DNA of 64,000 nucleotides from Chitinophagales bacterium (GTDB lineage Bacteria; Bacteroidota; Bacteroidia; Chitinophagales; Chitinophagaceae). The DNA lies in the NCBI GenBank assembly GCA_015654595.1, contig JAATGQ010000142.1, forward strand, positions 1 to 64,000, in the 5' to 3' direction. This document shows, one piece after another, positions 37,307 to 39,232 of this stretch. Under the pieces are notes generated by a model that saw only the letters and a program-made list of their open reading frames with translations, was not told the origin of the DNA and did not search any database. Within the stretch, counting starts at the first letter, position 1. Each line of letters starts with the position of its first letter. A program made the translations under genes and the position numbers.

Positions 37307-38722
37307 ATGGATAAATTTATTGTATCGGCGCGAAAATACAGGCCCCAGGATTTCTCTACAGTGGTGGGCCAGGCGCATATTACGACTACCTTAAAAAATG
37401 CGATCCGGAACGGGCAGTTGGCGCATGCCTTTCTGTTTTGCGGACCTCGCGGCGTAGGCAAGACGACCTGTGCGCGAATTCTGGCAAAGACCATCAACTG
37501 CGAGAATGTCGGACCCGACGGAGAGGCTTGTAATAAATGCCACTCTTGTGTTTCCTTTAATGATGGGATCTCTTTGAATATCCATGAGTTGGATGCGGCC
37601 AGCAACAACTCTGTCGACGACATCCGGACCCTGGTGGAGCAGGTTCGCTTTGCGCCCCAGGCTGGAAAATACAAGGTATATATCATCGATGAGGTGCACA
37701 TGCTTAGCACCTCTGCGTTCAACGCATTCCTGAAGACGCTGGAGGAGCCGCCTCCTTATGCCATCTTTATCCTGGCGACAACGGAAAAGCATAAGATCCT
37801 GCCAACCATCCTCTCCCGATGCCAGATATTCGATTTTAAGCGGATCACCTCGGCCGATACGGTCGATCATCTGCAGGATATCTGTAACAAGGAAGAGATC
37901 AAGGCGGAAAAACCTGCCTTACAGGTGATCGCCCAAAAGAGCGAGGGTTGTATGCGGGATGCGTTGAGTATCCTGGATAAGATCGTCAGCTTTACCAATG
38001 GAGAACTGACGTATACCAATACGCTGGAGCACCTGAACATCCTGGATGCCGATTACTATTTCCGGATCCTCGATGCGATGCGTGAGCAGAACCTGTCAGA
38101 TGCGCTGCTGATCTACGATTCTATCAACCGCAAGGGTTTTGAAGGGGATATGGTACTGAATGGCCTATCGGAATTCATTCGGAACCTGCTGGTCTGTAAG
38201 GATGAAAAAGTGGCTTCCCTGCTGGAAGTCGTAGAAAGCTTTAAGGACCGTTATATCGACGTTGGAAAAAGCGTCGATACCTTATACCTGATCAGCGCGC
38301 TGAATGTGCTGAACGAAGCGGAGCTCAACTTCAAATCCGCCCGTAACAAGCGGCTGCATGTCGAGCTGGCCCTGATCAAACTCTGTTACCTGGCGCAGGC
38401 CTTACAGGTTAGTGCGGGGGATGGAAAAAAAAAGGCTGATCAGCTAAGGCCCGTGTCCTTCAGAAATATCCCGGCCATGGTCCCTGTAAAGAGCCAGGAC
38501 GGGTCAGCAGCTGACGGCGGACGGGCTGCGGCAGCCGCAGAAAAGGCGGCAACAGGCGCCCGTCTTACGATCGACGAAGGCGTACAGTCTCCCCCAGCCG
38601 ACACAACCTTCCAAACTCCGGTCGGCAGTACTGCAAGCACGGCAACGACGGCTGAGGCTGAAGCAACAGTCGCCGGCACAGCCAGGCCAACAACCGGTCC
38701 CGGCACACCCGCCGCAGGATAA
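37307..38722 (+). CDS. dnaX: DNA polymerase III subunits gamma/tau DnaX (ends at in-frame TAA)
   Basis: DnaX is the ATPase of the clamp loader. The 471 residues before the stop hold the whole motor part: Walker A in CGPRGVGKTTCARIL (about 43-57), a four-cysteine zinc module (CENVGPDGEACNKCHSC), Walker B IIDEVHML, the SRC sensor in LSRCQIFDF, and domain III up to about residue 370. Then come an A9 run at 38425-38433 and an Ala/Thr/Gly-rich linker that ends at TAA 38720-38722. The same reading frame stays open beyond that stop for 170 codons and encodes a conserved-looking C-terminal domain (next entry). The truncated protein would still work as a gamma-like clamp-loader subunit. Confidence 0.93.
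   Translation: MDKFIVSARKYRPQDFSTVVGQAHITTTLKNAIRNGQLAHAFLFCGPRGVGKTTCARILAKTINCENVGPDGEACNKCHSCVSFNDGISLNIHELDAASNNSVDDIRTLVEQVRFAPQAGKYKVYIIDEVHMLSTSAFNAFLKTLEEPPPYAIFILATTEKHKILPTILSRCQIFDFKRITSADTVDHLQDICNKEEIKAEKPALQVIAQKSEGCMRDALSILDKIVSFTNGELTYTNTLEHLNILDADYYFRILDAMREQNLSDALLIYDSINRKGFEGDMVLNGLSEFIRNLLVCKDEKVASLLEVVESFKDRYIDVGKSVDTLYLISALNVLNEAELNFKSARNKRLHVELALIKLCYLAQALQVSAGDGKKKADQLRPVSFRNIPAMVPVKSQDGSAADGGRAAAAAEKAATGARLTIDEGVQSPPADTTFQTPVGSTASTATTAEAEATVAGTARPTTGPGTPAAG
38425..38439 (+). promoter_or_regulatory. Slippage/frameshift site in dnaX: A9 run followed by TGA
   Basis: The sequence GGA-AAA-AAA-AAG-GCT holds nine A's (38425-38433) and the heptamer AAAAAAG. A -1 shift, or one extra A in the transcript, gives GGC then TGA at 38437-38439. 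A deletion of one A gives a TAA at 38445-38447. So either slip ends translation within 14 nt, after about 376 residues, just at the end of clamp-loader domain III. E. coli uses a -1 ribosomal frameshift and Thermus a transcriptional A9 slippage at the matching place to make gamma. Use of the site here is inferred. Confidence 0.65.
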
Positions 38723-39232
38723 GCCAATCCAGGCGCAGGAGGTACAGCTAATGCAGGTGCACCAGCCGGAAAACCCGGCGGAGGCTTGGGTTCCCTGTCC
38801 AAGATCAGACAGCAGTTTACCGAGAAGCAGACGGCCGCCGCTAATCAAAGCCGACCGCTGGAGATCGAAGAACTTCATAGAGCCTGGCAGCAATACGCAG
38901 ACTATCTCAGGGAAAACAAGAATCCGGCGGTTCAAAGTCTTGAGCTGGCAACCCTTCGGATCTTAAATGAGACCAACTTCGAGGTGATCACTGCCAATAA
39001 CCTGGAACAGAAATTTATTGAGCAGGAAAAACGAAAGCTGAATGATCACCTGCAAAATGCTTTTGCCAATAAGGCCATCTCCTTTGCGATCCTTGTCGAG
39101 GAAAGAGAACAGACGACCGAAGAACAGACAGAGCGGCCTCTCAACAAGCGAGAGCAATTCATCCACATCGTGGAGCAATATCCCCTTGTCAAGGAGCTGA
39201 AAGACCGCTTGCGGTTGGAGCTGGATTATTGA
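38723..39232 (+). pseudogene. dnaX: C-terminal (tau) part of dnaX, separated by an in-frame stop
   Basis: This stretch is in the same frame as dnaX and open from directly after the TAA. It first continues the Ala/Gly/Pro linker (ANPGAGGTANAGAPAGKPGG) and then encodes about 145 residues of structured, charged sequence: SKIRQQFTEKQ, PLEIEELHRAWQQYADYL, QSLELATLRILNETNFEV, KELKDRLRLELDY. This is the place and type of the tau tail in Bacteroidota DnaX. The only non-AUG start candidate is TTG at 38786. Possible readings are a recent nonsense mutation, a base-call error, stop readthrough, or independent translation. Without the stop the protein would be 641 residues. Confidence 0.7.

Follow-up and report, generated by a model that had tools for sequence, protein, structure and literature searches.

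A probable programmed slippage site in the dnaX gene of a Chitinophagales bacterium and its counterparts in Bacteroidota

The dnaX gene and its A9 run

The dnaX gene analysed here is carried by a stretch of 64,000 nt from contig JAATGQ010000142.1 of a Chitinophagales bacterium (assembly GCA_015654595.1), hereafter called the window. On the plus strand, its ORF in the initial (zero) frame starts with the ATG at 37307, encodes 471 aa comprising domains I-III, the A9 run and part of the linker, and closes at an in-frame TAA (37307..38722); this ORF matched TIGR02397 with 442 bits over residues 6-360 and NF011531 with 680 bits. Domain III, recognised by its profile match to PF12169, covers residues 246-365 (38042..38401). 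The A9 run, a putative slippage site, lies downstream of it (38425..38433), where the zero frame reads GAT GGA AAA AAA AAG GCT GAT, the run corresponding to the codons for residues 374-376. No other run of nine or more A or T is present in the 64-kb window, and A9 matches in the 6.03-Mb genome numbered 35 and 36 on the two strands, with overlapping matches counted apart. Just 5' of the run there is a weak Shine-Dalgarno-like purine stretch, GGGGGA (38416..38421), the role of which is uncertain.

Both alternative frames close shortly after the run. Specifically, reading one base again after A9 (-1 frame) gives GGC TGA, and the TGA (38437..38439) lies 6 nt past the run, so that an additional A or -1 frameshifting by the ribosome would yield a gamma-length product of 377 aa; in the +1 frame, a TAA (38445..38447) lies 14 nt past the run, and the loss of one A, the gain of two or a +1 shift would yield a product of 379 aa. 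The predicted C-terminal tails are GKKKG for the additional A or -1 frameshift and GKKRLIS for the loss of one A. Our re-reading confirmed the first-pass annotation in its account of the run and of stops within 14 nt in both alternative frames, including their coordinates, and in its claim that either slip would end DnaX after about 376 residues, at the end of domain III.

The same annotation overlooked the TAA in the linker (38720..38722), which closes the zero frame at 471 aa. Beyond this codon, the frame of the N-terminus is open for a further 169 aa (38723..39232) as a tau-specific continuation, with the C-terminal domain at about 38819-39226, and this segment matched positions 482-614 of NF011531, the DnaX C-terminus, with an E value of 5e-12. 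In this genome, the tau product would end early at 38720-38722 unless the base is an assembly error.

The run, its stops and the tau frame in relatives

A DnaX match was obtained in 31 of 33 genomes of the genus, 113 of 117 of the family, 194 of 197 of the class and 156 of 158 of the phylum, these sets overlapping and each including the window's genome. The 333 loci, less L001-L008, which were own-genome matches, left 325, of which 321 were distinct, with the window's own copy (L009) included. A collection of named genomes, chosen regardless of frame, provided 80 loci, the nearest coming from genera such as Longitalea, Terrimonas, Chitinophaga and Flavisolibacter. Other loci (L234-L268, L225, L230, L231 and L314-L321) had been picked for a short zero frame, and frame shares over all loci are thus biased.

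We found an A run of at least nine at the domain III junction in 269 of the 321 distinct dnaX loci of the phylum, window included. By the longest A run close to the end of domain III, 46 loci had seven A's or fewer, 6 had eight, 83 had nine, 168 had ten and 18 had 11-13; runs of nine or ten thus account for 251 of the 321. At least nine A's were present in 21 of the 30 loci of the genus (eight in 3, seven or fewer in 6) and in 63 of the 80 named-genome loci, so that an absence of run and nearby stops among relatives, which the first-pass annotation had regarded as evidence against the site, is for the most part not what was found. Judging from run length, the site is dispensable in some lineages, as runs were shorter than nine in 9 of the 30 genus loci and in 17 of the 80 from named genomes. 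The suggestion that a Bacteroidota example would be of interest understated the case, the arrangement being widespread in the phylum and a form of it having been reported in 2013.

In 270 dnaX genes, runs of at least nine were absent from 300,798 nt upstream of the site and occurred twice in 177,772 nt downstream. The coding phase of the run varied, with all three phases represented (KKK, EKKK, EKKN, LKKK, VKKK and others), and it is therefore the nucleotides, not one peptide, that are kept. Of 268 loci, 253 had both non-tau frames closed no more than 35 nt after the run; by tau frame, these were 184 of 197 (zero), 64 of 66 (-1) and 5 of 5 (+1). For runs of A9 or longer, a pair of stops within 30 nt was present in 179 of 194 loci with tau in the zero frame (window counted), compared with 17.9% of linker controls, and in 61 of 66 loci with tau in the -1 frame (L077 counted), compared with 20.4%. 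Among 98 less related representatives the corresponding values were 56 of 60 against 19.2% (zero) and 30 of 34 against 18.5% (-1), and in the relatives' copies of these genes, 18-23% of control positions had stops within 30 nt in both other frames. Run and stops are conserved jointly, after domain III, in most of the relatives examined.

Within the genus, the stop pair was present in 18 of 21 loci with A9 or longer and in 3 of 9 with less (Fisher p 0.008), and on these counts the two features tend to be retained or lost jointly. Six loci of the genus (L014, L021, L032, L033, L036 and L038) have a run shorter than nine and lack at least one near stop, and are candidates for tau-only species; three others (L015, L022 and L034) have a short run and keep both stops.

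The tau C-terminal domain was located by profile in 316 of the 325 loci; seven of the remaining nine lie on stretches that seem to end early, and two (L095 and L106) do not. The 46 loci without a run of at least eight were left out of the frame counts. An uninterrupted tau frame between the run and the tau domain was found in 268 distinct loci with a run of at least eight, and it was zero in 197, -1 in 66 and +1 in 5; tau thus lies outside the zero frame in 71 of the 268 and would be reachable there only by a shift. The 268 are 270 loci without the window, on account of its TAA, and without L077, in which the tau domain is split between frames; both, L077 as -1, are counted in the figures for run length, stops within 20 nt, run controls, RNA structure and Shine-Dalgarno-like motifs, linker controls and the 270-label tree. 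L077 itself has an A10 run, and its tau domain is divided between the zero and -1 frames far downstream, which points to a second frame break or an assembly error. When the loci picked for short frames and the window were omitted, the distribution was 197 zero, 24 -1 and 3 +1 (n=224), and in the 63 named-genome loci with A9 or longer it was 45 zero, 15 -1 (L077 counted) and 1 +1, with 2 lacking a tau domain.

A zero-frame stop within 20 nt of the run was found in 65 of 67 loci with tau in the -1 frame (L077 counted) and in all five with tau in the +1 frame. The unshifted product thus ends soon after the run in these groups, and tau would therefore be made only by a shift there. Examples in single-contig genomes are L262 (a 3.47-Mb contig), L165 and L225, the last with A8. 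A FastTree phylogeny of domains I-III required a minimum of 33 changes of tau frame over the 268 labelled loci and 16 over the 224 unpicked loci; with 270 labels, there were 34 changes, compared with 58-69 in thirty label shuffles, and 17 independent pairs of tau-zero and tau-minus-1 loci were present on supported branches. A10 was found in 63 of 67 tau-by-shift loci and 116 of 198 zero-frame loci (L077 counted), an excess not independent of ancestry, and a link between A10 and tau-by-shift was dropped.

Part of this picture has a precedent. The available text of Antonov et al. 2013 lists 17 dnaX genes of 12 genera that need a shift for tau, nine of them with 10 A's, and names Chlorobium and Chloroherpeton among those with two ORFs (PMC3711429). 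In most of the 66 -1 loci, the arrangement is that of the two-ORF genes described in those parts of the paper, with A10, a zero-frame stop directly behind it and tau in -1, whereas the window, with its tau domain in the zero frame, does not have an ORF that ends right after the run followed by tau in another frame. Tau in the +1 frame and a phylum-wide interchange of frames are absent from the available parts of that paper (PMC3711429). A 2014 paper notes, in the text available, that searches for disrupted ORFs miss shifts that yield a shorter product (PMC4066793), and the window's case is of that type; cases of this kind were also described as hard to judge by comparison in the available text of Baranov et al. 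2005 (PMC1088944).

Proposed slippage by the polymerase and competing explanations

We consider it probable that the A9 run is a programmed slippage site, through which one gene would give two DnaX proteins, mainly by way of transcription. RNA polymerase would most likely slip on the T9 template, giving rise to transcripts in which the run counts 8, 10, 11 or more A's. Any mRNA with 9 + 3n A's would be translated on into the linker towards tau, and all others would meet a stop within 14 nt past the run and give a gamma-length clamp-loader subunit of 377-379 aa consisting of domains I-III.

Of the known systems, the Thermus type of transcriptional slippage fits best as far as sequence can tell. 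In Thermus thermophilus dnaX, the available texts describe a sense-strand A9 with tau encoded in the zero frame, nearby stops in the two alternative frames and a gamma-length product from slipped transcripts (PMC1088944, PMC5009743); this type is further defined by transcripts heterogeneous in A number and by tau and gamma near 1:1. The window is similar in having A9 in the sense strand, the tau domain in the zero frame and near stops in both other frames. It differs in that the zero frame, full-length for tau in Thermus, is interrupted by the TAA at 38720, in that gamma would terminate immediately past domain III, and in that the tau frame is interchangeable among relatives; moreover, slipping is our inference for the window, as are its mainly transcriptional nature and the use of both products. 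The first-pass annotation had called the site the same design as Thermus and similar to E. coli; the former likeness is the better one, and the latter falls short in RNA structure and in the +1 stop.

The E. coli mechanism is the best-surviving alternative. According to the parts of the papers available, a -1 programmed ribosomal frameshift in E. coli dnaX produces the shortened gamma (PMC5009743, PMC3711429). Applied to the window, shifting on A_AAA_AAG (or A_AAA_AAA) within the run would make gamma from uniform transcripts, an explanation that we regard as unlikely. As in E. coli, GGA AAA AAA AAG contains A_AAA_AAG in phase, the -1 TGA follows one codon further on and the product would be a shortened gamma. 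In addition, the GGGGGA stretch lies just 5' of the run, and Shine-Dalgarno-like 4-mers are enriched at this position in relatives, being present in 71 of 265 loci, a minority, compared with 11.6% of control positions. The only tRNA-Lys seen among 30 tRNA loci of the window's genome has the UUU anticodon, in a list that is incomplete and lacks tRNAs for several amino acids; E. coli likewise has tRNA-Lys UUU only. Where tau depends on a shift, it is in the -1 frame in 66 loci and in the +1 frame in 5, a ratio that fits the insertion of one A equally well.

A -1 ribosomal shift, however, needs no stop in the +1 frame, yet 169 of 198 loci with zero-frame tau had one no more than 20 nt past the run (control 31.6%), as does the window, and where tau is in the -1 frame, the remaining frame closed within 35 nt in 65 of 67 loci (L077 counted; control 47%). 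Five loci have tau in the +1 frame. Unlike in E. coli, the run in the window is longer than the shift requires, and the lengths in relatives, mostly nine or ten, likewise exceed what A_AAA_AAG needs, for which A6G would suffice; a G directly 3' of the run was found in only 99 of 270 loci. Downstream of the run, RNA structure was not in excess: the mean z over 265 loci was +0.22, 9.1% of them had a z below -1.5 compared with 7.1% of controls, and in the window z was -0.57, with 55 of 200 shuffles folding as well, a measure that a weak ordinary stem might escape. Rfam contains a dnaX element, and no match to it was found up to an E value of 1. Because stops occur in both frames, tau is found in all three frames, runs are mostly nine or longer, a following G is not preferred and structure is not in excess, slippage by RNA polymerase is favoured; transcriptional and ribosomal slipping may also act together.

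Another explanation concerns the window's own gene, namely that dnaX was damaged or mis-assembled through the TAA at 38720, in which case the cassette here would be a relic or could not be judged. Among 198 loci with a run of at least eight and tau in the zero frame, the window is the only one with a linker stop of this kind, and because the 197 others lack it, we take the TAA as a mutation or an assembly error; the assembly, moreover, is fragmented, with 265 contigs and 87% completeness. On the other hand, the genome has only one dnaX match above the family cut-off, the downstream tau domain is still recognisable and in frame, and the A9 run and both stops are intact, suggesting that the TAA is a recent change or an error. 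We therefore hold a damaged or uninterpretable cassette to be improbable.

Slippage during replication, rather than transcription, would make the run a contingency locus at the DNA level, which toggles cells between tau and gamma-only states. Long homopolymers mutate easily, and species often differ in run length and in tau frame. However, E. coli cannot do without DnaX tau, so gamma-only cells should not persist; in addition, in the 253 of 268 loci noted above, both other frames would yield a protein of gamma length instead of a null product, and the run is nine or ten A's long in 251 of 321, so that we regard such a locus as very improbable. Least credible of all is the explanation of the run as a by-product of a lysine-rich linker and of the stops as chance: the run does encode Lys-Lys-Lys in the window, and AAA makes up 71% of the Lys codons upstream of the run in these dnaX genes, but no run of at least nine occurs in the 300,798 nt upstream, three coding phases are used, the coupled stops come at four to five times the control rate and in some lineages the zero frame ends right after the run with an intact tau domain in another frame, and chance or lysine coding was thus rejected for the phylum by the run-length and stop controls.

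Junctions without the run and the two proposed products of dnaX

A different arrangement was found in eleven loci without a long A run, in which an in-frame UAG lies at or near the junction. These are all eight genomes drawn of genus g460, of a Bacteroidales family (L334, L394, L398, L399, L400, L401, L404 and L407), together with L085, L089 and L092, in which the UAG is at 2788, 4102 and 4099, respectively; the in-frame stops of the zero frame in L089 and L092 thus belong to this group. The context is conserved as TAG ATW GCN AGR and is followed by a short hairpin-like stretch, and past the UAG the tau domain is in the same frame in 11 of 11 loci (E 5e-15 or better, with L085, L089 and L092 among the loci iterated into the profile). 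Neither A run nor UAG was seen in the stretch read in the neighbouring genera g500 and g502. The element looks like a programmed UAG read-through to tau, for which it is a candidate; another possibility is that UAG is a sense codon in these genomes. Two of the records have "RUG" in their names, and we take these to be rumen genomes.

Bacteroidaceae loci that lack the run carry a small GC hairpin at the junction, variable in sequence (L084, L094, L098, L106, L188, L273, L299 and most of L364-L393), with a score of at least 12 in 32 of 35 loci, compared with 13.8% of 840 control windows. It takes the forms GGGC-NNN(N)-GCCC, GGCC/GGCC, AGGCC-UUCG-GGUCU and GGGG/CCCC, and the encoded amino acids change; in a few loci another hairpin scores best, and L186 and L384 have none. 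A stop pair within 40 nt accompanied it in 62.5% of 32 loci, compared with 22.3% of controls, too weak a difference to claim a frameshift element. L384, of the same family, differs from the relatives with a hairpin in that it has a long A run (ACT AAA AAA AAA AAG), followed four codons later by a TAG in the zero frame. Two further loci lack a long A run and have tau out of frame: in L235 the zero frame ends at a TAA just after domain III and the tau domain is in the -1 frame, and in L105 it ends at a TAA after GAG TGC and the tau domain is in the +1 frame. A mechanism for reaching tau was found in neither; U_UUA_AAA in L235 was considered as a -1 site and discarded, as the -1 frame stops one codon later.

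The UAG loci, the Bacteroidaceae hairpin and the L235 and L105 genes suggest that the junction, not poly-A as such, is under selection. As a tentative and quite possibly mistaken generalisation, the end of domain III in Bacteroidota dnaX may be an old and strongly kept point of decision between two products with interchangeable decoding, mostly poly-A slippage with tau in any frame and, where the run was lost, UAG read-through in 11 loci and possibly the Bacteroidaceae hairpin. In the literature searched, the window's site belongs to a known type, and its phylum-wide spread, the interchange of frames and the UAG variant were not found in print; specifically, the open-licence literature, judged by title and the start of the abstract among the matches listed, yielded no report of dnaX slippage across Bacteroidota or of UAG read-through in dnaX.

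The retention of the arrangement in most of the relatives examined suggests, from comparison of their genes, a long-kept way of encoding two replication proteins in a single gene. According to the available text of one report, it is known for few bacteria whether they produce a separate gamma and what purpose it has (PMC5009743). Our comparison predicts, lineage by lineage and with cultured isolates included, which Bacteroidota would make gamma and through which frame. It also assembles a large set of naturally occurring slippage sites that can be compared with one another for run length, frame and stops, and it names lineages in which the site has been lost, so that the need for gamma becomes directly testable.
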